Assembly (NCBI RefSeq): GCF_000226115.1
Contig: NC_016461.1
Coordinates: forward strand, 3,224,001-3,288,000
DNA length: 64,000 nt
DNA from: Thermothielavioides terrestris NRRL 8126
Lineage: Eukaryota > Ascomycota > Sordariomycetes > Sordariales > Chaetomiaceae
Direction of reading: 5' to 3'
Position numbers and translations under genes: made by a program. Positions within the stretch are counted from its first letter, which is position 1; each line of letters opens with the position of its first letter. The notes beneath the pieces are model-generated. The model searched no databases. It was not told where the DNA came from and worked only from the letters and a program-made list of their open reading frames with translations. Below, piece after piece: positions 15,601 through 46,326 of this stretch.

Positions 15601-17010
15601 CTTCGCTATAGCGATTATTATAGCAGTGCTCGTCGTCGCTATACCCCTCTAAGCAGAGGAATAGGTTCGTATCGTCCACTTCTAGCTAGACGTTATCTAG
15701 CTTAAAGAACTTCTTTATATAGTTCAGAGAATATAGTGTCTAGATAGATATATTGTCTAAAGTCTCTAGGAAGTAAGTGTTCTAGTCTTTGATTATCCGA
15801 ATATAGAACGGGCTAAACTAGCGATACTCTAGCTTCTAGACTAAGCTTATATCTAGCTACTAAATATTGTTGTAGACGAGGACGAGATCGCTAATAAATA
15901 TTACTACGTTTTCTAGGCGAAATTTACGTTTATAGGCCTTATTATAGCGTTTAGCTAGCTTTTTATAAGCTATAGCAACCTGTTTAACGGCAATCTTATA
16001 GTTATACTTAGCTTCTTAGAGGATATAAGTATAGAGAGCAATAAGCTTTGTATAGCGTCTAGTAGGATCTTCTCCCTCTATCTAAATATAGATAAAGTCC
16101 TAGGTAAGAATTCGCTAAGTAGGAATATTAAACTCGACTAGACTAATAAGCTTATAGTTGTAGGCAAGAAAGAAGAGAGATATTCTATAAGAGCCCCTAA
16201 TAGTTGTATAATCTATATATAAAATATATAGAAGGAGCTCCCTCTACCTCTTTCCTATACTATTAGTCATCTTTATAAACGAGGTAGCAATTGGGATATA
16301 GCTAGCCTCATTCACTCTATTTATACGTAAATTGTATAGTGAGATAATAACTCTCTTGATCTATAGTTTATAGAGGATCTCTTTGACTTCGCCCTTGAAC
16401 TTAGAGCCTCCGTCGACAACTATAATAATAGGGTAGCCCTAGCGACAAAGGATGTACTATATAATAAAGGACTTAATAGCTTTAGAGAACTTGTTCAATA
16501 GGATCTTAGCTTTAATATATCCTATAAGATTGTTATAAACCTCGATAAGGAAATACTTCTTCTCCCTATAGCTAGATAGTATATATTAGATATCAAGGTG
16601 CTATTTAGCAAAAGGAAAAGGCGAAAGTACTATCTAACCTACTACTTCCTCGAACCTCTAGGCATTATACACTTAATATAGTATATAAGCCTAAATCTAC
16701 TCTACAACAGCTTTGTATATACTATACTAATAGTAGTAGTTTATTACTCGTTAGTATATCGCCTCTCTCCTATAATAGCCAACTTCGCTATAGCACTGGT
16801 CGAAGATTAAACGCCTCTCTTTAGGGATGTCAACAACGTGCCTATAACACTATATATAATTTATATTTTAGAGGAAAAGGTAACGATCCTTAACAAAGTA
16901 TTTCAATACTTCCCTTTTAAGCTAATATCGCTTTTAGTATAGACTATAGCTAAACGGAGCTTCTATTGTTAATAGGAAGTAGGCGATGTCCTAGGAGCGC
17001 TAGGAGTAAC
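15601..17010 (-). pseudogene. Ty3/Gypsy integrase remnant, minus strand
   Basis: Read from 17010 downwards, the minus strand gives a RIPed Gypsy integrase: an HHCC-like region near 16750, an integrase core with VDGGSKFKG near 16420 (second catalytic Asp), NRVNEASY near 16310 in place of the catalytic-Glu helix, then a C-terminal part rich in Tyr/Lys. It is cut exactly at 17010 by the chromovirus LTR, and the reverse transcriptase expected further upstream is absent on the other side of that element. Confidence 0.65.
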
Positions 17011-17604
17011 TGTCATGCCCCGGAGCCACCCTAACCCGCGGGACCCGCCTCGGCACCCGGCACAGCCCTCGGAACGCGCCTCGGCACCTGGCACAACCCT
17101 CGGCCCGACCACCTCGCCCTGCATCCGGCACCCGGCGCAGCCTGGCCAACCACAGGGCACCACGCAGGTCATCTGCGTGCGCCACCAGGGCGCACGTCAG
17201 TAGCCCAGATCACGCGAGCCACCCGGAGGAGCGATCGGAGGGGCACAGAGCTGAGCGAAGTGCGGGGCATCAGGCTGAGCAAGTGCGGGGAACTGAGACA
17301 TTGGGTCGGCAGCAGAGCGGATTGGGCGCACTCAGGGAGCTATGCAGGCGCCACAGGATGGCCCAGGAAAGGATCTGCGAGCTCAGGAATGGAGGCTGGC
17401 CGATGCGGAGGAAGATCGAGGGCCAGGATGGGAGAAATAAGGAGGATGGAACCCACAGGCAGTGGGAGAGGCCAGCGTTCAATGCAACCACCCGCAACCC
17501 CCCTACCTGTAGCTACCCTGTAGCGCGTGCTCTGCTTGTGCCTTGCTCGTACTCCGTCACTTCAACGTATACCCCCTTCCTTCTGGGAGCCCCCGCTCCT
17601 GACA
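17011..17604 (+). repeat. 5' LTR of the chromovirus
   Basis: 594 bp, starts TGTCATGCCCCGG and ends GCTCCTGACA. Appears identical to the 3' LTR at 25850-26443. GC-rich with no strong TATA box. AGCGTTCAA at 17474-17482 may mark the RNA 5' end (see primer-binding site). Confidence 0.95.
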
Positions 17605-17617
17605 AGTTGAACGCTCT
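17605..17617 (+). promoter_or_regulatory. Candidate self-priming primer-binding site
   Basis: The bases after the LTR, AGTTGAACGCTCT, do not start with the TGG expected for a tRNA 3' end. TTGAACGCT (17607-17615) is complementary to AGCGTTCAA inside the LTR (17474-17482). In Tf1/sushi-type chromoviruses the mRNA 5' end folds back to prime at such a site. If so, R would start near 17474. Confidence 0.45.
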
Positions 17618-17655
17618 TATCCCACCTCAGGGAGTTGAACCGGCGGAGACGAGCC

Positions 17656-19317
17656 ATGGCCCAGACCCGCGCCCGCGCTGCGCTCGAGCAGAGCCCTGCA
17701 CCCTCGCAATCTCAGGCACTTTCCACCGATCCGACCTCTTCGTACACCCTCTCCGCACCGCCTGCGCCTGACGCCACCATGGGCGAGAGCTCCCAGCACG
17801 CCCAGATTGATCTGAACGGCTCCCGTGCAGCGCCTATCGACCCCCTGCTCTCCACCCAGGAGCGCGACCTTGCTGAGGAAGAGCGCCGTCTGAGCGCTGA
17901 GATCGCTCTCGAGCGCCGCCGTCAAGCTATCCTCCAACTGCGAGCTCAGCATGCGCAGCTCCTGCGCCAGAATGCCCAGCTTGCGCATGTTGCCGAGGGC
18001 GCCACCTCTTCGAATTCCGACCCTCTTGCCGCCCAGACCGCCAATACCACCGTGCCGGCTGCATCTGTTGCCGCGCCTGCGCCCGCACCCGCTCCTGCAC
18101 CTGCTCCTGCGCCTGTTGCCGCGCCTGAGGCTGCGCCCGTGGCCGCTGCGCCTGCGCCCGCACCTGTGGCCGCACCTGTGGCCGCGTCTGTTGCCATCGA
18201 TGCCCCTCCGCCCGCTGCCAATCCTGAGTTCAGCGCTCCTATTGCGCCCTCGCCGATCCTTCCCAGCGCTGCGGGAGCTCCCCTCTGGCGTGCCGCTGGC
18301 TTGAACCACCCCACGTACAGCGGCAAGGATGCTTCTTCGCTTCGGGCCTTCCTGTACGACTGCCGCACCAACTTCCAGCTCATGGGCTACTCGCTCGATG
18401 GTAGCGACTGCGTTGCGTACGCGGCAAGCTGCCTCCGAGGCCCGCCCAAGAACGCCTGGGTGAAGTATGTCCAGGAGCAGGAGGCCGATCCTAACTTTCG
18501 TCTCTCGGCCATCACCTGGGGCGAGTTCGTTGCGTTCCTTCAAAACGAACTATCTGATCCCGATTCGCGCGCCTTCAGTGCGGCCTCGGAGCTTGAGCGC
18601 CTCGCACAGCGCGAAGACGAGACCGTCCCGGAGTTCGTTGAACGGTTCACCAGCGTAATCGCCGACATGCCTTCGAAGTGGGATGAACCCACCCGCATAG
18701 TCACCCTCCTGCCGAAGTTCCGCCCAGAGATCAGCTTCATCCTCAACTGCTCCCCCCAGTTACCCGCTACGTTCCAGCAGCTCGTGAGCTTCGCCCGCCG
18801 TATCGAGCATAGTCAGCGCATTGCCGGCACCTCTCGCTATCGCCCTCGCTCGTCAAACAACGCCCCCACGGCTCCGCAGCCGCCGCGCCCTGTTAACGTC
18901 CCGCCCGCGCCCTTCCAGCGCCCCGTTCGATGCTTCACCTGCGGCAGGGAGGGCCATCGCTACGCCAACTGCCCCGAGAACCGCCCTCCTGCCCAGCCTG
19001 CCCCGCCTTCTGCCCCGCCTGTTCAGCCTGTTCCGCCTGCGGCTGCGCCCACCCAGCTTCCTCCTGCGCAGCCCGCACCCCAGCAACCCGCCCCAGATGC
19101 TGCCACGGCACCCGCTGCTGCGCCCAAGTCGCGCCCAGTTTGCTACACCTGCAACGAAGTTGGCCACATCTCCACATTCTGCCCCAAGGCCATCTGCCGT
19201 CGTTGCGGGCGTACAGGTCACACCGCTGTTCGTTGCCCGGAGCCTCTGAACCCGAACGCCCAGAATAACCCGAACCTTGCTCCGCTCGGGCGCGACCGCA
19301 GCGCCAACGCCGCCTAG
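17656..19317 (+). CDS. gag: Chromovirus Gag
   Basis: 553-aa structural polyprotein that forms the virus-like particle and packages element RNA. The first ATG in frame (17656) is used; upstream in-frame codons contain no ATG. The N-terminal third is Ala/Pro-rich, with a long AP repeat around residues 140-185 (18060-18200). A retrotransposon capsid region covers about residues 225-370 (YDCRTNFQLMGY to ILNC). Three zinc knuckles follow: CFTCGREGHRYANC near 425, CYTCNEVGHISTFC near 495 and CRRCGRTGHTAVRC near 513. Three knuckles is more than the usual one or two. The frame ends at TAG 19315-19317 and continues open into pol without a shift. Wholly intact. Confidence 0.93.
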   Translation: MAQTRARAALEQSPAPSQSQALSTDPTSSYTLSAPPAPDATMGESSQHAQIDLNGSRAAPIDPLLSTQERDLAEEERRLSAEIALERRRQAILQLRAQHAQLLRQNAQLAHVAEGATSSNSDPLAAQTANTTVPAASVAAPAPAPAPAPAPAPVAAPEAAPVAAAPAPAPVAAPVAASVAIDAPPPAANPEFSAPIAPSPILPSAAGAPLWRAAGLNHPTYSGKDASSLRAFLYDCRTNFQLMGYSLDGSDCVAYAASCLRGPPKNAWVKYVQEQEADPNFRLSAITWGEFVAFLQNELSDPDSRAFSAASELERLAQREDETVPEFVERFTSVIADMPSKWDEPTRIVTLLPKFRPEISFILNCSPQLPATFQQLVSFARRIEHSQRIAGTSRYRPRSSNNAPTAPQPPRPVNVPPAPFQRPVRCFTCGREGHRYANCPENRPPAQPAPPSAPPVQPVPPAAAPTQLPPAQPAPQQPAPDAATAPAAAPKSRPVCYTCNEVGHISTFCPKAICRRCGRTGHTAVRCPEPLNPNAQNNPNLAPLGRDRSANAA

Positions 19318-19362
19318 GAACTCGGGGGGCCCAGGTCGTCTCGGATCGAGAGCACTGTCCTC
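19315..19362 (+). promoter_or_regulatory. In-frame TAG between gag and pol, candidate readthrough site
   Basis: Gag and pol share one reading frame; only TAG at 19315-19317 separates them and no other in-frame stop follows until 23290. Downstream, TCTCG-GAT-CGAGA (about 19339-19351) can form a 5-bp hairpin, preceded by a G/C run (GGGGGGCCC). The RIPed copy has TAG at the same place (58793-58795, minus). Stop suppression as in gammaretroviruses would give Gag-Pol. Alternatively a single RIP change of CAG to TAG hit an originally fused polyprotein. Confidence 0.6.
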
Positions 19363-22300
19363 GTGCGCTTGGATAAGAATTGGAAGCCTGCGGTAGCAAT
19401 GCTAGATACTGGGTCGGATTACAACATGATCAGTCGCAGCTTTCTAGCTGAGCACTCGCAGTTGACCAAGTTCATTCAGTGCCCTGGATTTGCCGCTGTT
19501 GGCAATGTGCCTGTTCTGACGTACGGCGTGTGCCCCCTGCATGTTCGCATCACCGACCACCTTGGATACTCCCAGACCTGCCTGCTGCGCTTCGTGGTCG
19601 CAGATATCGAGCCATTCACAATCCTCTTGGGCCAGACTTGGATGGAGATGGCCGAGCCATTCTTCAACTACCACGAAAAGACTTGGACTTACCCGAACTC
19701 GAAGCGCCACCTTGGCTTGCAAGTTGAGCCCAAGCAGGATTGGAGCGATAATGCTTTCCTTGTTGCCGCGCTTGTGCCAGTCACCGACCCAGCCGAACCG
19801 CCCGACCCAGCCAACCCAGACGACCCAGCCGAAGAAGACTCGCCCACCGTTGGCTTGCAACCTGCTACTCCCGAGCTCCCGGAAGTGTATGAGGCCTACC
19901 GAGACCTCTTCTCCACTGCGGATCGACCTCCCCTGCCTCGCCACACTGCGCTTGAGCACCGCATCGATCTCGAAGACGGTGCGACTGCGCCATGGGGGCC
20001 GATCTACCCTCTCAGCGAGAAGGAATTGGAAACCCTGCGCAAGTGGCTCGCGGAGGCTCTGGAGAAGCAGTGGATCCGACCTTCCACCAGTCCCGCAGGC
20101 GCGCCCATTCTGTTCGTTCCGAAGAAGGGAGGCGAATTGCGCCTCGTTGTCGACTATCGTGCGCTCAATCACATCACCCGCAAGAACCGCGCTCCCATTC
20201 CTCTGATCGGCGAGATCCTCGATCGCCTGTCTTCCGCGAAGATCTACACCAAGCTCGATTTGAAGGATGCGTACTATCGGATCCGGCTGCGCGAGGGCGA
20301 CGAGTGGAAGACCGCCTTTCGCACGCGTTACGGCCACTTCGAGTTTGTTGTGATGCCGATGGGCCTGGCTAACGCACCCGCAACCTTCCAGACTTACATC
20401 AACCATGCCCTCTCTGGCCTTGTTGATGTCACCTGCATCGTGTATTTGGATGACATACTGATCTTTAGCAACGACGAAGCTGAGCACGAGCGGCATGTGC
20501 GCGAAGTTTTGGAACGGTTGCGAAAAGCCGACCTCTACGTCAACCTTCCCAAGTGCCGGTTCCATGTGCGCGAAGTCGAATTCCTCGGGTTCATTGTCAC
20601 CCCGGAGGGCATCAAGATGGAACCATCGCGCGTTGAAGCCATTGCGCAGTGGCCGCTACCTCGCAGCGCTCACGACATCCAGGTGTTCCTTGGGTTCACT
20701 GGCTTCTACCGCAGGTTCATTCGCAACTACTCGAAGATCTGCGCCCCCCTGACCGACCTACTCCGAGGCAATCGCACCTTTGAGATGACACATGATGCGA
20801 TCGATGCGTTCCACGAGCTACAGCGCAGATTCCAGGAAGCGCCCGTCCTGCGCCATTTCGATCCCAGCCTTCCGACCCGCGTTGAGGCAGATGCTTCGAA
20901 GTTCGCCATCGGCGCGGTCCTCTCCCAACTGTTCGAGGGCCAGTGGCACCCTGTTGCGTTCCGCTCCCGCAAACTCAGCCCCGAAGAAACGCGCTACGGC
21001 ACCGGTGATGGGGAGCTGCTTGCGCTCGTCGACGCCTTTCGTGCCTGGCGGCATTACCTCCTGTACTCGCAGACCACCGTCATCGCCCTCACTGACCACC
21101 TAAACCTCGAGTACATGAAGACGAAGAAGCGGCCCTCTGCGCGGCAGCTGCGCTGGAGCGATGAGCTCGCAGAATTTGACTTCGTCATTAAGTATCGCCC
21201 CGGCCCGCAGAACCCTGCTGACGGACTCTCTCGAAGACCAGACCTGGCAGAAGGCCCCAGCGACGAGGGCGCCGAGAACCCGCTGCTACGGCTCCTGGAG
21301 GAGCGTATTGCTGCGGGAAAGGACCATGTGCCAGGGCACCGCTCTACGGTTGGGGTTGTCACTCTGGCTGTGCGGCCGAGACCCAGTATGGGCCTCAGAG
21401 AGTTGGAGGATGCGTATGAGCTGCGTGAGCGGGAGTTTGATGAGAGTGTTGCGCCTGATGTGCGCCTCGAGGAGGGCCATCGGGAGGTCTCGCAGCGCGT
21501 GGGTAGCGGCAAGCGTCACCGTGAGCCCACGGCTGGGGACGAGGGAGAGGCGGCGGCGCAGAGGCCTCGCCTGGATGACGCTTTTCCACTGGTCAACCAC
21601 GGCTTGGACGGAAGTGCCACCCGCGGCCCAGATGGACCTGGTAAACCGCCGCTGGAGCGTGGCTCCCCGGAGGCCCAGGAAACACACGCAAGGGAACCTG
21701 GCCACCCGGGGCCTGGGCGGCGACCCCCCTCGGACCAGACGGCCCGCAGCAGTCTGGCTGGCGGCGTGCGTGCGCCTGATCACCGCCCGTACGTCGCTGC
21801 CGCTGCTAGGAAGCCGGTGGAGGACGAAGGCTGGCCTTTTGAGCAGCAACTAATCCAGGCACAGGAAGTCGATCCCTGGGTGACTGAGGGCGCTTGGAAG
21901 ACGGCTCGCATGCGCAGGCAGTGGAAGCTCGGAGACGATGGCATCCTGCGTTACAGCGGCAGGATCTATGTGCCTGCGGCCCTGCGGCACACGCTTTTGG
22001 CGCGCTACCACAACGCTGCAACAGGTGGCCATGGCGGCATCAGGAAGACTCGCGAGCGCCTGATGCGCTACTACTACTGGCCGGACATGCGCAGGGAGAT
22101 CGATCAACATGTGGTGGAATGCGTCACATGCGGCCGCACGAAAGCGAGAACCCACCGCCCTTACGGCGAGCTCGCAGCGCTGCCGGTTCCTGAGCGCCCG
22201 TGGCAGGATATCACGGTCGACTTCGTCACTGGCCTGCCCACCTCCATCGACCCCCGCACGCACAAACCCTGCGACGCCGTCCTCGTCATCGTCGACAAGT

Positions 22301-23292
22301 TTACCAAGTACGCCCTCTACATCGCAACGCACAAGCAGCTCCAGGCTGGCGCCTTTGCCCACCTCTTCTTCGATTACGTCTACCGACCCTTCGGCCTGCC
22401 GCAGACCATTGTTTCCGACCGCGGGAGCTTGTTTACAAGCGGGTTTTGGCGCGCACTCTGCGACCTCTTGGATGTCACGCAAAAGCTGAGCACTGCGTAC
22501 CATCCTCAGACTGACGGCCAGACAGAGAGGCAGAATCAGGCGTTGGAGCATTACCTGCGCACTTACTGCGCGTGGGAGCAGCATGACTGGGCGCAGAAGT
22601 TGGCTCTGGCCGAACACACTTACAACACCTCAGTGCATTCGGCTACGAAGGCGACCCCGGCATACCTCCTTTACGGCTACCACCCGCGCGATCCGGCAGA
22701 CCCGCTTGCGAACAGCTCGAGCAACGTTCCCGCTGCGGAGGAGCGTGCTAGGAAGCTCGCCAAGGATCGGGAAAGAATCCGCGAGGCCCTGGTGCAAGCC
22801 AACGAAGGTTATGCGAAGTGGTACAACCGCAAGCGCACGCCCATGACCTTCAGAGTTGGCCAGTGGGTTTGGGTTGATTCAAGGCACATTCGCCAGCGGC
22901 GCCCGAGCAGCAAACTCGCAGATAAGTATCTCGGGCCGTTCAAAATCATCGCTGATGTGGGCAGCAAGAAGATGGCGTATCGCTTGGATCTCCCGCCTGC
23001 GTTCAAGTTCCACCCTGTTTTCTCTGTTGCGATGCTCGAGCCGTTCAACGGCAACCTGCAGGAAGCGCTCGCGTACCGCGATCGCGTGCAGGTCGTTGCG
23101 CAGGAGCAGCATTGGGAGGTCGAAGCCATTCTTGATCATGCAGGGCCACCTCTCGACAGGTATTTCCTCATCAAGTGGAAGAACTACCCGCCAGAGGAGA
23201 ACACCTGGGAGCCGCGCAGGCATATTGATGACGGGCCTTTACTGCGCGCTTACGAAGCACGCATTCAAGATGAGCACAGGCGCAGGCGATGA
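19318..23292 (+). CDS. pol: Chromovirus Pol (protease, RT, RNase H, integrase, chromodomain)
   Basis: 1324 codons from the base after the gag TAG; the first ATG in frame is only at 19399 (MLDTGSDYN), so translation as Gag-Pol is more likely than independent initiation. Domains: aspartic protease DTGS near residue 29; reverse transcriptase about 200-480 with LVVDYRALN, FVVMPMGLANAP and YLDD (near 374); RNase H about 515-625 with VEADAS and LTDHLNLEY; a long disordered Pro/Arg/Glu linker about 650-860, unusual in length; integrase with H2C2 zinc finger (YHNAATGGHGGIRK, CVTCGRTK) near 895-940 and DDE residues in ITVDFVTG, VSDRGSLF and TDGQTERQNQ; a C-terminal chromodomain (YFLIKWKNY...NTWEP) near 1275-1295. 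The chromodomain defines a chromovirus and usually targets heterochromatin. All catalytic residues are present. Confidence 0.95.
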   Translation, partial: ELGGPRSSRIESTVLVRLDKNWKPAVAMLDTGSDYNMISRSFLAEHSQLTKFIQCPGFAAVGNVPVLTYGVCPLHVRITDHLGYSQTCLLRFVVADIEPFTILLGQTWMEMAEPFFNYHEKTWTYPNSKRHLGLQVEPKQDWSDNAFLVAALVPVTDPAEPPDPANPDDPAEEDSPTVGLQPATPELPEVYEAYRDLFSTADRPPLPRHTALEHRIDLEDGATAPWGPIYPLSEKELETLRKWLAEALEKQWIRPSTSPAGAPILFVPKKGGELRLVVDYRALNHITRKNRAPIPLIGEILDRLSSAKIYTKLDLKDAYYRIRLREGDEWKTAFRTRYGHFEFVVMPMGLANAPATFQTYINHALSGLVDVTCIVYLDDILIFSNDEAEHERHVREVLERLRKADLYVNLPKCRFHVREVEFLGFIVTPEGIKMEPSRVEAIAQWPLPRSAHDIQVFLGFTGFYRRFIRNYSKICAPLTDLLRGNRTFEMTHDAIDAFHELQRRFQEAPVLRHFDPSLPTRVEADASKFAIGAVLSQLFEGQWHPVAFRSRKLSPEETRYGTGDGELLALVDAFRAWRHYLLYSQTTVIALTDHLNLEYMKTKKRPSARQLRWSDELAEFDFVIKYRPGPQNPADGLSRRPDLAEGPSDEGAENPLLRLLEERIAAGKDHVPGHRSTVGVVTLAVRPRPSMGLRELEDAYELREREFDESVAPDVRLEEGHREVSQRVGSGKRHREPTAGDEGEAAAQRPRLDDAFPLVNHGLDGSATRGPDGPGKPPLERGSPEAQETHAREPGHPGPGRRPPSDQTARSSLAGGVRAPDHRPYVAAAARKPVEDEGWPFEQQLIQAQEVDPWVTEGAWKTARMRRQWKLGDDGILRYSGRIYVPAALRHTLLARYHNAATGGHGGIRKTRERLMRYYYWPDMRREIDQHVVECVTCGRTKARTHRPYGELAALPVPERPWQDITVDFVTGLPTSIDPRTHKPCDAVLVIVDKFTKYALYIATHKQLQAGAFAHLFFDYVYRPFGLPQTIVSDRGSLFTSGFWRALCDLLDVTQKLSTAYHPQTDGQTERQNQALEHYLRTYCAWEQHDWAQKLALAEHTYNTSVHSATKATPAYLLYGYHPRDPADPLANSSSNVPAAEERARKLAKDRERIREALVQANEGYAKWYNRKRTPMTFRVGQWVWVDSRHIRQRRPSSKLADKYLGPFKIIADVGSKKMAYRLDLPPAFKFHPVFSVAMLEPFNGNLQEALAYRDRVQVVAQEQHWEVEAILDHAGPPLDRYFLIKWKNYPPEENTWEPRRHIDDGPLLRAYEARIQDEHRRRR

Positions 23293-23333
23293 GCGGCGGG
23301 AACGCAACGAGGGCGCCAAGCGGCGCTTCAATT

Positions 23334-23369
23334 GAGGAAAAAAGAAAAGAAAAGGAAAAAAGAAAAAAA
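23334..23369 (+). promoter_or_regulatory. Internal 36-nt purine tract after pol
   Basis: An unbroken run of G and A (starts GAGGAAAAAAGAAAAG) lies 42 nt after the pol stop and 38 nt before the 3' end of the antisense gene. It may act as a second plus-strand primer, or be the relict 3' polypurine tract from before the antisense module was acquired. On the minus strand it is a pyrimidine run just past the antisense stop. Confidence 0.4.
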
Positions 23370-23406
23370 CAACGCAAGAACCACCCACCCACCCAACAGC
23401 CACCCC

Positions 23407-24742
23407 CTACATCGCCAAGTCCTTCTCCAAGCCCTGGATCGACTCCGTCACGAACTCGGCCACCTGCGCGTCATCAGCGCCCTCCTCGCTACCCCCCTCC
23501 CCCTCCTCACCCTCCTCCGGCGGCGGACCCCAGCTCTTCACCACCACCAAAATTTCATTCTTTGATTGTTAGCCACACACACGCTTCGTGGACGCAACGG
23601 ACTCGCAGACTTACCACCACCCCCTCCACACGCTTCTGCTGCTCCTCCAGCTTGGCCAGCCTCTCCACCACCTCCTCCAGCGTAGTGCTAGGAGGAGGGG
23701 GAGGAGGTGGGAGCGGCGCGGGCGCGCCGACGAAGCGCCGGAGGCGCCTCTTCAGCACGCCCTCCGCCTTCCGCACCTCCCCCCACTGCTCCGAGAAGTT
23801 CTCGGAGCGGGCGGTGGGGGCGACCGGGGCACCGCTGATGGCCTCGCGGGCCACCGCAAGCGCGTCGACGACGCCCTGGACAAGCGCAGCCGGCTAGAAC
23901 GCGCTCAGTACACGCATCGCGCACGCAGGGGAGACACTTGAAAACTTACCTTTTCATCGGCGGCGGGGTGGTCCCTCTTGTCGAGGGCTTCGATAAAGCC
24001 GCAAACTGCGGCGAGGGCAGTAGGATGAATCTTCATTTTTTCAGAGGGATCAGCAACAGCGCAACGCACACGCAACGAAAACGCAGGTTTCGGCTTCAAG
24101 GCGCTGAGGTCAGCGCCTTTGAAGGAGGAGGGCAACTCACAGCCGGGCAAGTATGGTTATTTTGCGCACACTCGACGCAGCGCGAACCGGAACCTACGAG
24201 CATGTCAGACGCAACGAACACGCAACCTACACGCAGACACGCACCGGCTTGATGGTGGCAGACGGGGGCGCCACCACTGTCGAAAAACTTGGCCACACAA
24301 CGGCGGCAGCTACCATTGTCAGCACACGCACAGCCCGCGCCTCCGACACGCTTCGGTTGCGCTCTCTGCACTTACGGAATGATGCGGGCAGCGCCCGCAG
24401 GGACTCTCTTCTTGGGCGTCGAGTCAAGGTCACTGGACTGCCGCACTGTCAGCGATCGCGTTGCTCCCCATCTGCGCCCTCTCTACGTACCGCCCTTCTC
24501 TTGCGGCCGAAGCCGCCCTTGCGCGGAGTCGGAGGCTCGGATTCCTCCATCTCTTCGTCCTCGTCCTCCTCCTTCTTCTCCTCCTTCTCGTCGTCGTTGG
24601 CGGGCGCAGCCGCCGCGCCAGACGCACGCTCCGCGGGAGCCGCGGGCGCGTCGTCGGCGGGCGACTCCGCCTCGCCAGCAGGGCGCTCTTCAGGCGCCGC
24701 GTTGATGGGCCGGAAGCCCAGGCTCGAGAACAACTTTGACAT
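23407..24742 (-). CDS. Antisense spliced accessory gene of the chromovirus, Cys-cluster protein
   Basis: Unrecognised gene on the strand opposite pol, predicted 329 aa. Exons (minus): 24742-24491, 24437-24376, 24309-24245, 24193-24141, 24093-23950, 23875-23615, 23559-23407. All junctions keep phase; donors are GTACGT, GTAAGT, GTGCGT, GTGAGT, GTAAGT, GTAAGT; most introns have CTGAC or CTAAC branch points. Features in order: MSKLFSSLGF start; Ala/Pro then Glu/Lys-rich acidic region (30-75); basic GRKRRA; PKKRV (nuclear-signal-like); Cys cluster CRRC-x13-C-x9-CVEC-x6-C (about 105-142); central helical region with ALAVAREAISG; a seven-proline run; a coiled-coil-like helix (TLEEVVERLAKLEEQQKRVEG); acidic tail ending KDLAM. 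A nuclear or nucleic-acid-binding role is inference. The RIPed copy at 53369-54704 has exactly the same 1336-nt length. Single junctions may be off, especially the AAG acceptor at 24094. Confidence 0.7.
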
Positions 24743-24750
24743 GATTGCTT

Positions 24751-24818
24751 CTACCCAGCGTGTCAGCAGCGTCCGCCCTGCTCCATCCATCGACATCTCA
24801 GCGTTGAAGGTCACTCAC
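24751..24818 (-). other. Possible 5' UTR intron of the antisense gene
   Basis: GTGAGT at 24818, a CTGAC branch point and TAG at 24751 define a 68-nt intron nine bases upstream of the ATG at 24742. An in-frame upstream ATG was not found, so this would be an untranslated-leader intron. Confidence 0.4.
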
Positions 24819-24859
24819 GAGGCGCGGCCGGAAATGAATGAGTTATTTGAATCTGCCAC

Positions 24860-25849
24860 ATTGTCAGCGCACCATTGCATTCTTCCCGCCGGCCGCGCAG
24901 CGAGTTCGCCAGCCACGCGGCCCTCGCACGCTGGAATCGCCAGAGCCATCCTGTCGATCGAGAGCCATCCTGCCAATCGACCGAACCATCGCGGGGCGAC
25001 CTACCGAGGAGAGGCGAGGGCGGAAGCGCCAAAAAAAAAACGAATCATCTGCAGAGCGAAGAAGTCAGCCATGCGCGCGCGATCAGAGGGAGCGTTAGGA
25101 GGAAGCAGAGGGCACGCGCGCGATCGCAATCGCGGGCCAGTATCGCATTGTCGTCGTGGTGGGCTGGGCACTTAGGTGGGCTGGGCACTTACGAAGATGG
25201 CGCGAAGGAAGAAAAGGAGGAAAGGAAGGCTGGGAGCCGCGAGCCCAGAAGATATACTCGGTAAGGTGGTCCAAGCTTGGAGGGCTCAAAATCCTGTGTT
25301 TCTTGCATCGCAATGTTCTGGCAGAAGTTTCAATTCCCCTTTTCCATGTGCGCAGCGAAGGCGCTTGGGACGCGCATAGTGTGCGCTCCTTACCCCTTTT
25401 TCTTTCCTGCCGTCACCCCAAACATGCACACCTTCTATTCAGTTCTATTCAGCTCTATTGTTGCCTTCCTGTTTCGGGCCTGAATAGGCCCTGAATAGGC
25501 GGCCCCAGATCTGAACAGGCCACTTCCATCTGGGCCGCCCTGGATCGCGCATGCGGAGGAGCAGTTGGATCGATGGAGGCCGCGCATGCAGGAAGATCGC
25601 AAGCCGCGCATGCGCCACCCGAACTACCGCTACGCGATCTGCCGCCGGCAGGCTAGGCCGCGGGCCGAAGCGCGACTGACAGGAACCACGCGTGCGGCAA
25701 GATCGTAAGCCGCGCATGCGCCACCCGAACTACCGTTACGCAGTCCGCCGCCGGGCATGCAAGGCTACGACCCCGAGGCGCGACCACTGCGCCCCTCAGG
25801 CTACGGCACGGCAGTCCCTGGGGTCAGGGACCTTGAAGGAGGAGGGCCC
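24860..25849 (-). promoter_or_regulatory. Presumed promoter region of the antisense gene, with direct repeats
   Basis: About 1 kb between the antisense gene and the 3' LTR without supported genes. It holds a roughly 50-bp repeat present twice (about 25587-25640 and 25703-25755; shared core AAGCCGCGCATGCGCCACC), a tandem 'ggtgggctgggcactta' at 25158-25193, repeated 'ctattcag' at 25436-25457 and 'cctgaatagg' at 25481-25500. Position fits a promoter firing away from the 3' LTR; this is inference. A plus-strand open frame at 24153-25175 is a shadow of the antisense exons. Confidence 0.4.
25834..25846 (+). promoter_or_regulatory. Polypurine tract of the chromovirus
   Basis: TTGAAGGAGGAGGGCCC lies directly before the TGTCATG start of the 3' LTR, in the position of the plus-strand primer. 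It is conserved, inverted, in the RIPed copy at 52262-52280. Confidence 0.8.
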
Positions 25850-26443
25850 TGTCATGCCCCGGAGCCACCCTAACCCGCGGGACCCGCCTCGGCACCCGGC
25901 ACAGCCCTCGGAACGCGCCTCGGCACCTGGCACAACCCTCGGCCCGACCACCTCGCCCTGCATCCGGCACCCGGCGCAGCCTGGCCAACCACAGGGCACC
26001 ACGCAGGTCATCTGCGTGCGCCACCAGGGCGCACGTCAGTAGCCCAGATCACGCGAGCCACCCGGAGGAGCGATCGGAGGGGCACAGAGCTGAGCGAAGT
26101 GCGGGGCATCAGGCTGAGCAAGTGCGGGGAACTGAGACATTGGGTCGGCAGCAGAGCGGATTGGGCGCACTCAGGGAGCTATGCAGGCGCCACAGGATGG
26201 CCCAGGAAAGGATCTGCGAGCTCAGGAATGGAGGCTGGCCGATGCGGAGGAAGATCGAGGGCCAGGATGGGAGAAATAAGGAGGATGGAACCCACAGGCA
26301 GTGGGAGAGGCCAGCGTTCAATGCAACCACCCGCAACCCCCCTACCTGTAGCTACCCTGTAGCGCGTGCTCTGCTTGTGCCTTGCTCGTACTCCGTCACT
26401 TCAACGTATACCCCCTTCCTTCTGGGAGCCCCCGCTCCTGACA
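25850..26443 (+). repeat. 3' LTR of the chromovirus
   Basis: 594 bp, appears identical to 17011-17604. Followed by AAGTA and a Copia reverse-transcriptase frame. Confidence 0.95.
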
Positions 26444-28000
26444 AAGTATAGGAAGGAGTTCAAGGTAGCTATATACGAAGAGATCTATAATCTTATAAGC
26501 AAAGGAATATAGCGAGAGATTAAGCGAGAGCATGCGAAAACGTAGCCTCTACCCCTGAAATAGGTGTTCGAGTATAAGCTCAACAAGGATAGCAACCTTA
26601 AGAAGTGCAAAGTGTATATCTATATATAAGGCGATCTACAAGACACTACTAACATTGTAAATATATATATAGCTACCTTCGCTATACGCTCTTTTCGCAC
26701 TATTATAGCGCTTATAGTATACTTCGACCTTAAAGTAAAGTATTTTAATATTAAATAGGCGTTCCTAAATATAAAGAGGCTAGATATAGAGCAGGTGACT
26801 TATAAGCTCCTAGAGGGATTTAAGAAACTAAGGATCTATATAGAGCTTCTAAAGGCTCTCTATAGGCTAAAAGACTTATTGCTCCTATAGTACAATAAGT
26901 TCTGCGATACTTTTAGAGAGCTTGGTATATAGTCCTCTATATAAGAACCCTACCTGTTCCTCGACCCTAAGAAAAAGATTATCCTTATCTTCTATATCAA
27001 CAACTTCTTAGTAGTCTACTATCGAAATAATGCTATAGCTATAGAGTATATTATAAAGGGCATTAAAGCGAAGTATAAGGTATATAAGTAGAGTAATGTC
27101 AAGCACTTCCTTAGGATCAGGGTCATCTACAATCGTAGAGCATATAAAATCTAGCTTATATACAACTAGTATATCGAGAAGATTATAAAGAAGTACAGTC
27201 TCGCTAATATCGCGAGCGCTCTAGCTATTCCGCTTCTTATAGAAGAGCTTTGCAAGTTCGAGGGAAAGGCAACCCCAAAGTAGATCAAATTATATTAAGA
27301 GCTTATAGGCTCGATCCTCTACTCTATAGTTATAATCTAGCTAGATGTCGCGTTTATAGCTATAAAGCTCTCTCAGTTCCTAACGAATCTAGGACTAGAG
27401 TATATCAAAGTAGCAAAACGAGTTATCTAGTACCTATATACTACACGCTTCCTTGGCATATAGTATAGGGGTAGAGCTATTTACTAGGTGCTCTAGATTA
27501 TATCTAACGCTTTGTACACTGACAATCTAGATATACAACGCTCCTTATAGGGCTATATTATAATGCTCTTTGGCAGGTTAATTTCTTAGAAAGCTATATA
27601 GTAAGATACTGTTACTATATCTTCTACCGAGGTAGAGTTAAAAGCTTTGTCGCTTATTATAGCTAAGACAATTGCTCTAAAACGCTTGTTTAGGGACCTT
27701 GCGTTCAAGAATAGAGAGCCTTAGAAGATCTTCTATAACAACTAGCAGACGATTCGCCTTATAGTAGGAGAGTATATAAGGATTAATACTTGCCTACGCT
27801 ATATAGATATTCACAATATATAGCTTTATTAAAAGTATTAGAACAAGCAGTTTAAGATGCTCTACCTCTCTATAGTATAGATGCCTATAGACGGTTTAAC
27901 GAAGTAGCTCTCGAGATAGAAGTTTAAACACTTTTATACTCTATTAAACCTTTAAGATATACGTTAGGCAAGAAAAGAGTAGGGGAGTCAACTATCTTCT
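26444..28000 (+). pseudogene. Copia reverse transcriptase-RNase H remnant, RIPed
   Basis: One plus frame broken mainly by TAG/TAA. It starts abruptly at the chromovirus LTR inside the N-terminal part of the RT (FKVAIYEEIYNLISKG; then VFEYKLNKDSNLKK). Copia RT marks follow: IVYFDLKVKYFNIKQAFLN, LKALYGLKDSLLLWY and FYINNFLVVY in place of the YVDD box near 26995. The RNase H with ALYTDNLDIQ and STEVELKALS lies near 27520-27650 (STEAEYxAL in intact elements). The frame ends near 28000. Gag and integrase of this copy are missing on the left. It is followed by an antisense frame and the LTR at 29238. Confidence 0.85.
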
Positions 28001-33339: not shown

Positions 33340-36300
33340 TACCTTTATATAGATAGAGTAGCTATTACTTTCAAATATAGACGAGAGTAGTATACTAGGC
33401 GTTTCGACGTTAGTATCAAGTAGGCTAGACGCTACTATAAACAACCTAGGCGTCCTATAGGTCCTAGACTTAGATTAGGTCTATAAATACTTCTAACTTT
33501 TATAGAAGACGATTATACGTTAGAACGTAACTATTAAGGAACTTTATATAGCTTAGATTGCTATAGCTTAGACTATAAACGCTTTTATAGTAGCTAACGC
33601 CTAGGCTCTAACGACTAACGCTATAGCTCTAGTAGCTCTCTAGATATAGTAGAAGCGCCTCCCTATAAAACAACCCTTCGATAGTAAAAAGGAGCTCTTT
33701 GTTGTCTAGAGGGCTATAATAGTATATATCTTAGTAGTGGACTAGGACTTTATTAGGGGTCTCTACGATTAATAGGTATTTATTTAAAGGAACTTTAGCT
33801 AAAGGGTCTAGGCTAAGGTCGTAGCCTTCTATAAGTTAGGAGGACCTAGCTATAACTACGACCTAGGAGCGTTTCTTAAATATCTTATAACAATCTATAT
33901 AGACCCTTATAAGTAGGTTATAGCCTTAATAGAGCTAGATATACTCTATTAAGGAGACAATAAACTATTCTCCTCCTTTATTATTTACTTTAAGGCAAAG
34001 CTATCGAAGGCTAGAGGACTTAATTAGAGCGACGAAGTACAATTCATTAGACTATAACAATGCTTCTCCCTAAAGTTAAAGTATATTATAGTAGGATAGG
34101 GGGTTTTATAGAACGACTATACTATAGCTATTACGAAATATTATAAGATTGCTATTGACCTAGAGGCCTTTCGCCTAGAGGAACGATATTAATAGTCCTA
34201 GGGTAAGCGACCTAGGCCTAATGTAGATATAAAGAAGGATATAGATAGAGATATACTAATAACTAGGATTAATACGACCTATACTGCCTTAGCTTAGAGG
34301 GGAGCTAATAGGGGTTATAGAGAAAAGTAGTAGTAGAATAAAGGAAAATAAGGTATAAACGTGCTATAGGCAAAGTAGATAAGCAACGAAGTATATATAG
34401 TACGCTAATAGGCTAGAGCTTATATCTATTATAGGCGCTAGGGCTACTTCGTAGCTACTTGTCCCTTTGCCTTAGCTAAGAGACTAGCTCCTTAGGTCGA
34501 CATTAATAAGTTAGAGGCTAAAGAATAGGTAGAGGAGGACTCCCCCTTTAAAGAGGAGGAGGGAAAAGAGTAGCCTCTATACAAAGTCTTATATAGGGGC
34601 TAAAAGGACCTAGCCGTTTATAGAACGAGTTTATAGAGATTAGAGAGAAAATAGATAAGCCCCCCTTTCTTATCCCTATTTTTCTAAACTCCTCTAGTTT
34701 TATAAATATATAAGTGGATAGTAGATACTAGAGCTATAGAGCTATTAGCGAGAGAGTATATTAGAGGTTAAGGATCAAGTAGGTAAGTTTGTCGACTCCC
34801 TATACCTTAGATATTATAGTTAAAGGGGTATAAATTATAAAGAAAATTATATATATCGCCTATATTACAATAGACATTAATAGGTAGATTAGTGCTACTA
34901 TATTCTATATAGTACTAGGGCTAGCCTACAACGTTATATTAGAGCTCCCTTAGATAAACTACTATAGAATTATATTAGACCTAGCTAATAAGGTCTTTAC
35001 TATCAATTTATAAAGTAGCCTATAGGTATATAAATACTCTTTATAGTAGAAAGAAGCTAACGCTACTCTAATTATAGGCGTAATGTTTATAGGCTTAGCC
35101 TATAGGGTATAAAGGAAGAAGTCTAAAGGGGTATAAGATACGTTCCTTATTACTAGTATCTATAAGATAACTACTATACTAGGAATAGCCGTCTCCTAGC
35201 CCAATATCGACCTAGACCTGAAGGTTGCTCTACTAGAGGAGCTATATAACTTCGTTAACCTCTTCGATAAAGAGAAGGCGAACGACCTCCTCCCCTATTA
35301 GAGGGAGGCTAACTATTATATCCGTCTTAAGATAGGCCTAGACGAAAAACCTTCTAAGCTCCTATAGGGACCTTTATATAATATACTAAAGGACTATCTT
35401 CTAGAGATTTAGAAGTAGGTTATAAACCTATTAGATAAAGGATAAATCTAGGTAAGCTCCTTATTAGTAGCTACCTTAGTCCTCTTTACAAAGAAGTTAA
35501 AAGAAGGATAGAGGTTCTATATAGACTACTAAGCTTTAAATAAGATTATTAAGTAAGATCGGTATCTACTCCCTCTAATTAAGGAGACTCTTTAGTCCTT
35601 AGCTAAGGCTAAATAGCTTATAAAGCTAGACGTTAGAGCTATATTCTACTATATTTAGATAGCTAAGAGGGATAAGTACCTTATAGTGTTTTATATAAGG
35701 TTTAGACTATTTAAGTAGCTAGTCTACCCCTTTAAGCTTATAGGTACTCCTATAATATTTTAGAGATATATTAACAATGCCCTTGGTCTAACGCTAGGAG
35801 ACTATATAATAGTATACTTTAACGACGTCTTAGTATATTTGAGTAAAAGCTAAAAGGACTATATAAAGAAGGTATATAAGGTCCTCTAAAGACTAAAGGA
35901 TATAGGCTTTAACCTAGACCTTAAGAAATATATATTTGTAGTAAAGGAAGTTAAGTACCTAGGGTATATTATAGAGGCAAGGGTCTATATCCGCCTTGAC
36001 TCTAAGAAGATCAAGGCTATTCGTAAATAGGAGGTACCCTATAAGGTCTAAAGAGTATAGAGCTTCTTAGGATTTACTAATTTCTATTGCGACTTTATCT
36101 CTAACTTCTCTAAAAAAGTAGCTCTATTAATACGCTTTATCTATAAGAACGTCCTCTTCTACTAAGGCAAAGAGGAGTAGGACGTCTTTAATACGCTTAA
36201 GGCTATATTTATATCGGAGCTGATCCTTATCTAATAGGATCCTAAGAGAAAGACGATTATAGAAGTAGACTATTCTAGTATAGTACTTAGTAGATACTTA

Positions 36301-38600
36301 TCTTAGTAAGGAGAGGACAAGGTTCTTTACCCTATAGCCTACTACTCTACGAAATTAAGCTCTACTAAGTGCAACTATACTATCTATAATAAAAAGCTAT
36401 TAGCTATTATCTTATATTTTAAAGCCTAGTTAATAGAGCTTCGAAATATAGTAGCCCCCTTCATTATCCTAACCAACTATAAGAACCTTAAGTACTTTAC
36501 CTAGCTATATCCAATTAGTAAACGGTAGGCCTAATAGGCGAAGACGCTCTCTCTATTCAACTTCGAGCTAAAGTACTAGCTAGGATCCTAGGCTTTATAC
36601 CCTAATACGCTCTCTTAGTATAAATAAGACGAGCCTAAAGATAGCTAGTATATCGCCTAGCTACTCTCTCCGATTAAGGTATACTAGACTAGCGTATAGG
36701 AGAAAGCTAGGTTGCCTATAGGAGAGATACTCTTTGAGGATAAGTAGCTTATAGCCCTATAGGAAAAGGGTATTATTAAAGACAAGTACTACGTTTACTA
36801 GCTCTAGGCTATTTATAATAGAGCTTAGAAATTTCTAAAGAAGGCGAATATAGTATAAACCTAGATTATAGACTACTCCTTCAACGTATAAGGCACGCTC
36901 TAGTTCTATAGCCGTCTCTAGCTCCCTATATAGGAGCCTTTAACTACTACGATTATCTAGTAGATCTATAACTTAGCTATATTAAGATACCTAGGGTATA
37001 ATAAGCTATTTAAAATACTCTAGAGAGATTACTACTAGGACCTTATATTGTCTAATGTAAAGCAGTTTATTAGGAACTACAATTAGTACTACTAAAATAA
37101 GATCTCCTAGTAGCTATATTAAAGGCTTTTACAACCTTTGCCTATCCCTAATCGCTTTTAGAAACAAATCTCTATTGACTTTATAACTAACCTCCCTATA
37201 AGAGACGAAGGGGCGTCTAGCTACCTTATAGTAATTACTAACCACTTCTCTAAATATATATAGCTTAAAGCGATATATTCGATAAGAGTAGAAGAGTATA
37301 CTCTCTAGTTCTATAATATATAGTAGCACTTCTATAGGTTTCCAACTTAAATTATAACCGACTATAGGTTAGACTAGTTGAGTAGGTTCTAGACTATACT
37401 ATATAAGGCGGTAGGGGTAGAGTAGCTTCTATCGACTTTTTACTATCCTTAGACAAATAGGGGAATAGAGTAGGTCAACTAAGAGGTATAGGCTATCCTC
37501 TAGATCTTCGTCTCCTTTATATAGTACAACTAGCTTAAACACCTCCTAGCCTACTAGTTTATATTTAACAATAGGGACTCGTCTATAATTAGGGTAAGCC
37601 TAAACTACCTCCTCTATAAGTTCGATATAAGCTCTATATAACTTATTACGATCCTAATAGCGCTTATAGCGACCTTAGAGAGCTACGTTGCTAAGTTCCT
37701 TCGCTATCTAAAGGAGGAAATAGAGTAGACCTAAGTAGCTATCGTATATATATAGTAGCGGTAGTAGACGAATATAAACCGCTCCTATTGCCTAGCTAAG
37801 AGGTTTAAAGTAAAGGATAAGGTATAGCTCTCTCTATATAATATAAAGACAAACCACCCTAGTAAGAAACTTGACTAGCTAAATACTAAATATAAGGTAG
37901 TTATAGTACCTACCCCCTTAACAGTGACGTTTAATATACTAAGTAGTCTATACCTAACCTTCTATATCGATCTAGTTAAGTAAGCAACCTTTAATCCACT
38001 CCCTTTGTAGAAAGTTATAGATAAGTGGCTAGACCCTATATAGGTTACGTCGAAGGAGGGTATTCCTTAGTAGGAGTATAGGGTAAAGGCGATCTTTAAA
38101 GCTTAGAACGCTAAGGGGAAGGGAAACAACTATAATATATACGTCAAGTAGATAGGTTACAATAAACCAACGTAGAAGCCTTTAAAGAACTTCTTAGATA
38201 CTACTACGCTTAACGAGTTTAAATAGGAATAGAGAGATATACGATATAACGATAGGCTAGTATCGAACTAGAAGAGGAAAAGAAAATACAATGTTTATAT
38301 ATAGACTACTCTATAAGAAACGACAACGATAAAACAAATATAGCTCGATAGTACTACTAGATATATAGTTACTTTAACACATCTAGCTACAATCTTATTA
38401 TAAAAGAACAATAAGAAAAATATAAGTATAGAAAGGCTCTAATGTACTAACTAGGTCTCCTTCCTCAGATATAGGTAGTCCTCTAGCCTTACTTTAGCGT
38501 CAATCTTACAATATTATAGGATACCTAGGTACAAGCTAAGGGGAGACGAGGTTAGTAGCTAACGTATTACCTACTTTAGGATCTCTAAGATAGGGCAAGG
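33340..38600 (+). pseudogene. Gypsy copy A gag-pol, RIPed
   Basis: A plus frame with dozens of TAG/TAA stops. Gag includes a capsid part (SFIIYFKAKLSKARGLN near 33980) and a CCHC knuckle with RIP damage near 34430 (YYRRQGYFVATC). The protease is weak (VDTRAIELL near 34725). RT is recognisable by KLDVRAIFYYIQI near 35630, YPFKLIGTP near 35730 and YFNDVLVY (YxDD position) near 35820. RNase H follows with IEVDYSS near 36260. Integrase has SIDFITNLP near 37170, ITDYRLDQLSRF near 37360 and PQTNRGIEQVNQ near 37460. It ends just before the copy B insertion. Closely related to copy B along its whole length. Confidence 0.85.
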
Positions 38601-38609
38601 GCGGATATT

Positions 38610-38880
38610 TGTTACGGACCAGGCTGTACCCGGGCTAGGTATGTGGGGCTGCGCCTAGGATCTGCGGCGGCCCTGGGACGGATCCGCGGCGGCCCTGGGA
38701 CGGACCCGTGGCGGGCCCGCCTTACGCCCGGAATAACGTCGGTCCGAACCTACTTCGCAAACCCCTAAAAAACCCTATACACAAGGACCGTAGCCTATAC
38801 TTCTCCTTTTTCCTTCCTTAAGGTAGTTGAATAGAATATCGTACGCTTATCTATAGACGCTATAAGGCTAGTACGTTATA
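38610..38880 (+). repeat. 5' LTR of Gypsy copy B
   Basis: Starts TGTTACGGACC. Contains a tandem 22-bp repeat (units starting 'ggatc(t/c)gcggcggccctggg') at about 38658-38701. AAGGTAGTTGAA at 38820-38831 is complementary to the bases after the LTR. Confidence 0.88.
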
Positions 38881-38881
38881 G

Positions 38882-38893
38882 TTCAACTACCTT
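38882..38893 (+). promoter_or_regulatory. Self-priming primer-binding site of Gypsy copy B
   Basis: TTCAACTACCTT, one base after the LTR, is a perfect 12-bp reverse complement of AAGGTAGTTGAA at 38820-38831 in the LTR. This is the arrangement used by Tf1-type elements, where the mRNA 5' end primes reverse transcription. In copy A the same pair is present with one RIP-type change. Confidence 0.7.
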
Positions 38894-38899
38894 CGTGTA

Positions 38900-44150: not shown

Positions 44151-44187
44151 GGATATTAAAGTTACTGTAACTACTCTAGTTAGTAGG

Positions 44188-45392
44188 TTAGTTCAATAAT
44201 AGGTCGAAGCGTAGGATAAAGTAGGAGCAAGGCTATAGTAAGGGATAGAGCTATCTCTAGCCCTACTCTATAGCCTCTTCGTCTCTAGATAGTACTATAT
44301 TGCTAGTGGGTAGGTACTCGATACCCTCGTTAAACGACGAAAGTACCTCTATAATTGGCTATCTATTAGACCTGCTAGGGGTTTAGGGTAGAGGATTAGT
44401 ATATTCCTAAGGGACGTAGGCAAGGTTTTCGAGGAAAAAGGATAGATAGCGCTAGGGATATAGGACGAAGGGAACTAGAGTAATGTTGTACCTAGTAGGA
44501 GTTGTACCGTAGCTGCCTTATAGAGAGGGGCTAGACTATAGTGAGCTCAAAATATAGTCGACGAGACGATTGTTAGTATTAACGACTATTATAATAGTGT
44601 CGACCAAATAGCGTATATCGCGTTAATAGGCTTCCTCATTGCTTATTAAATGATAAGTTAAGTAGACGGCTAGTTAGGCGGAGTAGTCTAGGGAGGAGGT
44701 AGGCAGATTATAGGGCACTAAAGCCCTATAGTAGCTCGGCGTAGTAGAGGAGGCGACTAGGGTCTAGGGGATAATATGAGTTGGGGTCCGCTTAGTAGTA
44801 GACGGAGGGAGTAGTACTAGCTAAACGAGGATACGATACGTCTATATATTGTTAAAAGCGGTCTAGAAAGACTACGTTAGCTTCTAGAATTTACATTTAA
44901 AGACTATGTAACGAGCGGGCTACGAGCTTATCTTCTTTTAGGCTAGGGTCTCAATAGCCTAGCCTATATCGTACACCTTAAAGATTTTCTTTAGACTAGA
45001 CCAAAGGCGAAGGTTTATTACCTACAATATAGAGTCCTACTTATATATAGTATAGGCCCTTCGACATTCCTCGTAAGATTTACTATAACTAGGGGTATAT
45101 TCGACCTTGGTACTACTAAGAAGGTAAGCGATATACTATATATAGAACTCTCCTTTATTAGGAAGTAGTTCGTTTTCTTCGTTATCGAAGTCTCCTTCGA
45201 CAACGAACTCGCCGATCGATAGCTTATCGTTCTTCTAACGATTATTTCAGTTCTATAACGTCGTAGTTAGTAAGCGACTTAGGTCTATAATAGAGTCGTC
45301 CTAGAAGCATTTATATTATAGTCTTCGTTATTATCGCTACTAGGACAATGGCCTATACTACTACCTCTAAGAGCAGTAGTAGCGACTAACAT
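44188..45392 (-). pseudogene. Antisense accessory frame of Gypsy copy B, RIPed
   Basis: Minus strand between pol and the 3' LTR. From 45252 to 44188 a single frame of 355 codons runs with internal stops TAG/TAA/TGA only of RIP type. It includes GEFVVEGDFDNEENELLPNK and RIVFKCKFQK-like stretches and ends at TAA 44190-44188. An upstream ATG at 45392 opens a short N-terminal exon; TACTAAC followed by TATAG at 45253 looks like a branch point and acceptor of an intron joining them. The protein is acidic at its start and Pro/Ser-rich later; no domain or Cys cluster was recognised. Copy A has the same frame at 46327-47531. Confidence 0.6.
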
Positions 45393-46020
45393 TTTAGCGT
45401 TCCTATATACGAATATAGCAAATGAGTTTTAGAACTATATTGCTATTGAGGAGGGGGACAAAGAGACTCTTATAGGAGCTAAGGCAATAACGAGCAATAT
45501 ACTCGAAGGTATAGGTAGACGTGAGGTAGGAGCGTAAAAGAAAGGAAATATATATAAGACGGAATAGGGAGAACGATATTACTATATAAGAAAGGGGAAG
45601 AACAGATCGTAGGGGAGGAAGGGGAGGTATACGTTAGGTATAGGAAGAAAATATAAGAAAGTCAAGTTGTATAGAAGAAGGGGTTTAAATGACAGTAGAC
45701 AGGGTTGGATTATATATAATTAGCAAGTACACTTAGTACAACATAGTTGTAATATATAAACGTACGAAGTGAGGAAGGGCTAATCAACGGTTTGCTAGGC
45801 AATGTAAATAAACGACTTAAGCCTAGGCAATAGGACGGCTACAAGTGGCAAGGCCTCAATAGGCAACTACGCTAGACTACTCTAATAGCGAGGTAGGCGC
45901 TATACAACTAGACAGTAGGTGCTAGCGTCTATTACGACTGGCGCTACGCTAGACCTGAACCACGTTCGATACGACGTTATATATACTCCAATTTAGCTAC
46001 CCAACGGGGTGGGGGGGGTA

Positions 46021-46291: not shown

Positions 46292-46326
46292 ATATTAAAG
46301 TTATTGCAACTACTCTAATTAGTAGG

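Follow-up and report, generated by a model that had tools for sequence, protein, structure and literature searches.

A predicted multi-intron antisense gene between pol and the 3' LTR of a chromovirus in Thermothielavioides terrestris

Analysis of a 64,000-nucleotide stretch (here called the window) of contig C5 of the heat-loving fungus Thermothielavioides terrestris NRRL 8126 (Ascomycota, Sordariales, Chaetomiaceae; genome 36.9 Mb, six contigs) gives good support to the prediction that a chromovirus whose gag and pol are open carries, on its antisense strand, a spliced gene coding for a protein. This gene would occupy the minus strand at 24742–23407, between the pol stop (23292) and the 3' LTR (25850), and its seven exons join in phase as 314 codons and a TAG, separated by six introns of 51–110 bases.

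The chromovirus and its antisense gene

The host element spans 17011–26443 and is bounded by two LTRs that are identical to the letter. The gag-pol products match Retrotrans_gag, zf-CCHC, RVT_1, RT_RNaseH, Integrase_H2C2, rve and Chromo above the Pfam cut-offs, with only a weak match for the protease (Asp_protease_2, E 0.26), and the domain order gag, RT, RNase H, integrase and C-terminal chromodomain is that of a Ty3/Gypsy chromovirus. The element had been called intact in an earlier note on this DNA, and it looks intact, with open gag and pol, identical LTRs and a chromodomain. Since pol is open in the frame of gag, with a single UAG (19315–19317) between them, synthesis of pol may rely on read-through of this stop codon. 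The features of the element and of the antisense gene, whose exons and introns were placed by exon joining, are as follows.

17011–17604, plus strand: 5' LTR, TGTCATGC...CTCCTGACA, identical to 25850–26443
17656–19317, plus strand: gag ORF, ending in the UAG (first ATG by eye; Pfam Retrotrans_gag, CCHC knuckles)
19318–23292, plus strand: pol frame with weak protease-like match, RT, RNase H, integrase and chromodomain (ORF list, Pfam)
24743–25849, minus strand: expected antisense promoter and leader region, up to the 3' LTR (from position)
24751–24818, minus strand: possible 5'-UTR intron just upstream of the ATG, GTGAGT...CTGAC...TAG (by eye)
24491–24742, minus strand: exon 1, ATG at 24742–24740, acidic region
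24438–24490, minus strand: intron 1, GTACGT...CTGAC...CAG
24376–24437, minus strand: exon 2, PKKRV
24310–24375, minus strand: intron 2, GTAAGT...CTGAC...TAG
24245–24309, minus strand: exon 3, first half of the Cys cluster
24194–24244, minus strand: intron 3, GTGCGT...CTGAC...TAG
24141–24193, minus strand: exon 4, second half of the Cys cluster, CVEC-x6-C
24031–24140, minus strand: intron 4, GTGAGT...CTGAT...AAG, acceptor uncertain
23950–24030, minus strand: exon 5
23894–23949, minus strand: intron 5, GTAAGT...CTGAG...TAG
23615–23893, minus strand: exon 6, charged region, proline run, helix-like end (helix by eye)
23560–23614, minus strand: intron 6, GTAAGT...CTAAC...AAG
23407–23559, minus strand: exon 7, stop codon at 23409–23407
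25850–26443, plus strand: 3' LTR, identical to the 5' LTR

The seven in-phase exons and the standard donors that the earlier note had described were thus recovered, and its mostly CTRAY branch points are found, by eye, in five of the six introns (CTGAC three times, CTGAT and CTAAC), intron 5 having CTGAG. Its length of 329 codons could not be reproduced. The weak point of the model is the acceptor of intron 4, where we used ATGAAG/ATT; taking the GAAG that precedes it would yield 335 codons (hand count) in place of 314. The gene and pol converge, their stops lying at 23407 and 23292. A direct repeat of 69 bp (87%) was seen at 25580–25754, in the stretch that separates the antisense ATG from the 3' LTR.

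Strand signals were compared with shuffled sequence. Between 23293 and 25849, GTRNGT donors number 18 on the minus strand and 0 on the plus strand. In 1000 dinucleotide-preserving shuffles the minus strand had a mean of 4.1 and a maximum of 10, so that 18 was reached in 0/1000, while the plus strand had a mean of 0.8 and zero donors in 444/1000. Part of this asymmetry is composition, because the gag-pol stretch (5658 bases) is also rich in minus donors (15, against 5 on the plus strand). The longest minus-strand coding sequence with introns allowed has 370 codons and five introns, and so differs from the seven-exon model; the same procedure on 200 shuffles gave a mean of 136 codons and a maximum of 434, with 314 or more in a single shuffle. 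On the opposite strand lies an uninterrupted sense ORF of 340 codons (24153–25175), above the 95% shuffle value of 215. By our own reckoning its codons share their third positions with antisense exon 1, and we read this ORF as a probable shadow of the antisense gene.

Judged by eye, the predicted product has an acidic N-terminal part, the basic stretches RKRRA and PKKRV, seven consecutive prolines and a charged end that looks helical, along with a cluster of six cysteines, C-x2-C-x12-C-x9-C-x2-C-x6-C. The PKKRV motif, the CRRC...CVEC-x6-C cluster, the prolines and the acidic stretches that had been pointed out before are therefore all present in the joined exons. Canonical Zn(II)2Cys6 proteins follow C-x2-C-x6-C-x5..12-C-x2-C-x6..8-C. 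The window product resembles them in its six cysteines and in its second half (C-x2-C-x6-C), but differs in its first half, which is C-x2-C-x12-C and not C-x2-C-x6-C. With this spacing, and with no Pfam match at E<=10 for the Cys region alone, assignment as a Zn(II)2Cys6 binuclear cluster was rejected. The whole product matched no Pfam family above the cut-off (best PF08070, E 0.12), and nothing in the PDB better than E 1.4.

Protein searches over 5.8 billion proteins returned a single match, THITE_117983 of the same genome. The earlier note had proposed such a search among other fungi; only the own-genome protein answered it, nothing from other fungi matching in searches that need shared five-residue words, one of which scored the best 8000 candidates. 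Viral contigs scanned with the spliced protein and with pol yielded no relative. Within the genome, residues 190–259 matched a site inside a long ORF (C1:6116259, L040; E 6e-4).

Copies of the gene, repeat-induced point mutation and selection

A genome search placed the antisense gene at 32 or more positions, two pairs of which look like split copies, leaving at least about 30 elements. Five copies, the window's included, are identical over the searched 1336 bases, and the other four are 100% identical to the window copy over 1651 bases. The association with the element was examined from the RT side: in 24 of the 30 RT matches of the window's family the gene lies on the opposite strand and downstream within 4 kb, so it is present in most copies, and in the remaining six a gene piece lies 8–36 kb away, as later insertions would cause. 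Three of the five identical copies have a 5 bp target-site duplication. The window copy and a copy on C2 (L011, L048) lack their own; each bears the other's flanks, with GTAAC / AAGTA at 17006–17010 / 26444–26448 for the window copy and AAGTA / GTAAC for the C2 copy. Either a reciprocal C2–C5 exchange took place at these elements, or the assembly was mis-joined through identical repeats.

We aligned the window with 28 loci (L009–L036), excluding L037 and L038 as pieces. Loci L013–L019 together have 2418 C>T or G>A differences and two others (hand sum), and among the 24 diverged loci the other differences range from 0 to 69 per locus, being highest in L036, L034 and L035. Such a bias is the mark of repeat-induced point mutation (RIP). 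The window itself contains a further, RIP-mutated copy of the gene (53369–54704), its element being on the minus strand. Since the copies descend from nearly one sequence, they say little about selection beyond the few differences that are not of RIP type.

These few differences were used in two ways. First, 20 of the 54 distinct coding changes that are not of RIP type are synonymous, where 11.4 would be expected (P=0.005); the changes come from related copies and so are incompletely independent, and the set leaves out L034 (partial) and L035 (a poorly aligned stretch), both dropped after their differences had been seen, and with L035 kept the figure is 22/76 against 15.8 expected. Changes common to two or more copies are synonymous in 7 of 12 cases (2.5 expected). 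The same test gave P=0.37 and 0.88 in the other antisense frames and P=0.64, 0.009 and 0.90 in the sense frames. As the sense frame with P=0.009 shares third positions with the gene, the test shows codon phase and not strand. Second, the four distinct exon indels among RIP-mutated copies (-3, -15, +15 and +12, all in low-complexity stretches) are multiples of three, compared with 2 of the 10 indels in introns and flanks; the hypergeometric chance of this exon/non-exon split is 15/1001 (by hand), with the +15 indel sitting in the poorly aligned part of L035 and L034 outside the count.

Of the 24 diverged loci L013 is the least mutated, and it is to this locus that the NCBI protein THITE_117983 maps. 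The alignment of the protein has the first two junctions as in the seven-exon model and departs from the model further on.

An antisense gene in a second chromovirus group

The same genome harbours a second group of chromoviruses, with an RT region 43% identical to that of the window element, and an antisense gene is found there at the same place. In L041 this gene starts at 1743 with a 26-codon exon and a GTAAGT intron, followed by a long frame that has ten TAG and one TGA over 417 residues, in-frame stops such as RIP would make. A less mutated fragment, L051, has the Cys cluster C-x2-C-x11-C-x7-C-x2-C-x6-C. Its comparison with the window cluster scored 49, a value reached by 7/5000 plain and 56/5000 Cys-fixed shuffles, while a mutated gene of the version called C below scored only 24. 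Homology between the Cys clusters of the two groups is likely but unproven, the similarity of the sequences being modest. One further protein search, again requiring shared five-residue words, gave no match. For another pol relative, L042, tblastn found no match to the window antisense protein; as L041 itself reached only E 0.25 in the same tblastn, this result leaves room for a gene there.

The 100 listed matches to the second-group gene (100 of 129 candidates were scored) include 77 that lie within 6 kb of a listed RT, and for 74 of these 77 the gene is opposite to it and downstream; among the remaining three, C2:5001677 is compatible with an RT that comes later in the same list. Full-length matches split into a version B, 56–73% identical to L041, and a version C, 27–36% identical, figures that are lowered by RIP in the query and in the copies. 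The 93 listed RTs comprise 38 with version B, 36 with version C and 19 with no listed gene. A third version was sought in two of these 19, and both carry version C. At the RT the two sets overlap, identity to L041 being 68–81% (median 73%, L041 excluded) for elements with B and 67–81% (median 69.5%) for those with C.

RIP yields transitions only. Transversions were for that reason counted to compare elements carrying the two versions, on one pair, L041 (B) and L054 (C), over the pol 3' part, the gene region and the LTR. They number 13/1830 in the pol 3' part and 3/246 in the 3' LTR, as against 47/448 in the stretch from gene to LTR and 310/1244 in the antisense gene region; transitions over the same four parts number 288, 34, 117 and 331. 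Blastn aligned the two elements to the end of pol and again past the antisense gene, and not across it. In this pair the antisense gene is deeply different while its compared surroundings hardly differ apart from transitions. The simplest cause is exchange by recombination; rapid divergence of the gene under conflict is possible.

A broader proposal is that the antisense gene serves fungal chromoviruses as an exchangeable identity or counter-defence cassette, of which at least two deeply divergent versions, carried by elements nearly identical (transitions aside) in their LTR and the compared part of pol, are kept apart by selection. We regard this as doubtful. Were it true, selection would be for recognising self, for excluding rival elements or for evading host silencing.

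Precedents and proposed role

Antisense genes of LTR elements and retroviruses have a history: the brtn gene of Boty-like Gypsy elements is reportedly treated by Zhao et al. 2011 (Virology 417:248), and HBZ is the antisense gene of HTLV-type retroviruses. These retroviruses resemble the window element in that their minus-strand gene is reached from the side of the 3' LTR (PMC7264820 and PMC11963269), a likeness by analogy and not by sequence comparison. As PMC7264820 describes it, LTR retrotransposition is considered to need no genes beyond gag and pol, yet additional antisense genes turn up repeatedly in plants and fungi, and the antisense additional ORFs (aORFs) between pol and the 3' LTR of plant elements and of Boty have been suggested to have nuclear regulatory roles; the same paper asks that antisense and spliced transcripts be looked for. 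The fungal precedent is brtn of Boty from Botrytis cinerea, placed antisense between pol and the 3' LTR and named also for Sclerotinia sclerotiorum (PMC7264820), and it figures likewise in PMC8365987, PMC4227169 and PMC5987419. The gag-pol of Boty ends in a chromodomain (PMC4227169), and a Monilinia transcript resembles BRTN (PMC5987419). By these accounts Boty is like the window element, a fungal LTR element with a chromodomain-ended gag-pol and an antisense gene before the 3' LTR. The protein searches, within their five-residue-word limit, gave no foreign relative of the window product.

Plant elements provide further parallels. The gene23 of Grande and the antisense genes of RIRE2, Retand and PvRetro13 are like the window gene in place, orientation and presence in most copies; a 2025 survey has antisense ORFs there in all representative Retand elements (PMC11963269), the GENE23 product is reported as nuclear (PMC7264820), and some plant aORF products are nuclear or predicted to bind DNA (both sources). 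They differ in belonging to another kingdom, and the window product has no match to TRP28 or Smc in Pfam. The word 'intron' is absent from the main texts of PMC7264820 and PMC11963269, as is 'antisense' from that of PMC3248453, a survey of fungal LTR elements. An antisense gene between pol and the 3' LTR is therefore known already, from plants and from fungal Boty, so that such a gene is not foreign to fungal elements. For the multiple introns that the earlier note stressed, we found no precedent among antisense genes of fungal elements in the literature searched, which lay mostly outside subscription journals. The new features are the number of introns, six, and the presence in this genome of another chromovirus group, whose antisense gene has the corresponding position and a similar Cys cluster.

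We think it probable, from sequence features, that the gene is the element's own accessory gene and that its product is a nuclear protein binding nucleic acid or chromatin, predicted to act as a regulator in trans. An antisense promoter would lie within 24743–25849, and its transcript would be spliced, while sense genomic RNA would retain the introns. Because the intron signals are unusable on the sense strand, the introns would be kept in genomic RNA and so survive transposition, which would require no special device. Guided by motifs, we postulate that the product enters the nucleus via RKRRA and PKKRV, that its six-cysteine cluster, perhaps zinc-binding, contacts nucleic acid or chromatin, that it self-associates through the helix-like C-terminal end and that it modulates the element's transcription, RNA handling or integration in trans. 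Deep divergence, or exchange, of the corresponding gene in the second group would be compatible with its taking part in a conflict, either with the host or with other elements. In T. terrestris five identical, unmutated copies carry the multi-intron gene, and the second group includes elements that resemble each other but differ mainly in their antisense gene, a contrast that makes the role of such genes testable by expressing and localising single proteins.

Four other explanations were weighed against that of an accessory regulator. An identity or immunity factor, whose protein would act on other elements or tell self from non-self, as in copy-number or superinfection control, would account for the existence of two divergent versions among elements that closely resemble each other, and B and C do sit in elements whose compared pol and LTR are near-alike apart from transitions. 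The contrast is however confined to the second group and to one measured pair, the window's family shows one version, and recombination requires no such function; we judge this reading unlikely.

Quite unlikely, in our assessment, is that the antisense transcript acts in place of the protein, pairing with sense RNA to feed small-RNA silencing or dampen transposition, the frame being secondary. The convergent 3' ends could give overlapping RNAs, and PMC7264820 suggests siRNAs as a possible product of antisense transcription in LTR elements, but selection on a protein is indicated by the six introns that keep the frame, by exon indels that come in threes and by the synonymous excess.

That the gene is a passenger captured from the host, without function for the element, seems decidedly improbable. 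The introns and gene-like anatomy do resemble genomic capture, and host-gene transduction by LTR elements occurs (PMC7264820). Against it, four matches outside elements (L039, L051, L052 and L057) are short or broken fragments with no intact paralog among them, these four being the ones read; 23 of the 100 second-group matches have no listed RT nearby, and a minority of these were read. An antisense gene also exists at the same place in another element group. The protein searches, within their word limit, returned the own-genome copy only, so that the captured host regulator entertained in the earlier note finds no support.

Lastly, it is hardly credible that there is no antisense gene and that the 340-codon sense ORF is the real gene or the region non-coding: the ORF does exceed its shuffle value and the synonymy also fits a sense frame with the same third positions, but sense donors are absent against 18 antisense, the ORF crosses antisense introns, and the similar Cys cluster of the other group lies on the same relative strand.

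The fragments away from listed elements are L051 (C3:3960700–3962200), L052 (C3:2256100–2257200), L057 (C2:3107900–3109400) and positions 3900–4130 of L039; they have few stops, being perhaps below the length on which RIP acts. At C2:3108388 a 46% match that lies apart from the listed RTs proved to be a frame-broken fragment (L057), and its score of 26 against the window Cys domain was reached in 1435/3000 shuffles, that is, by chance. Elsewhere in the window, at about 36000–48400, RIP-mutated elements of the second group stand apparently in a row, with antisense genes at 44002–45252 and 46291–47391.
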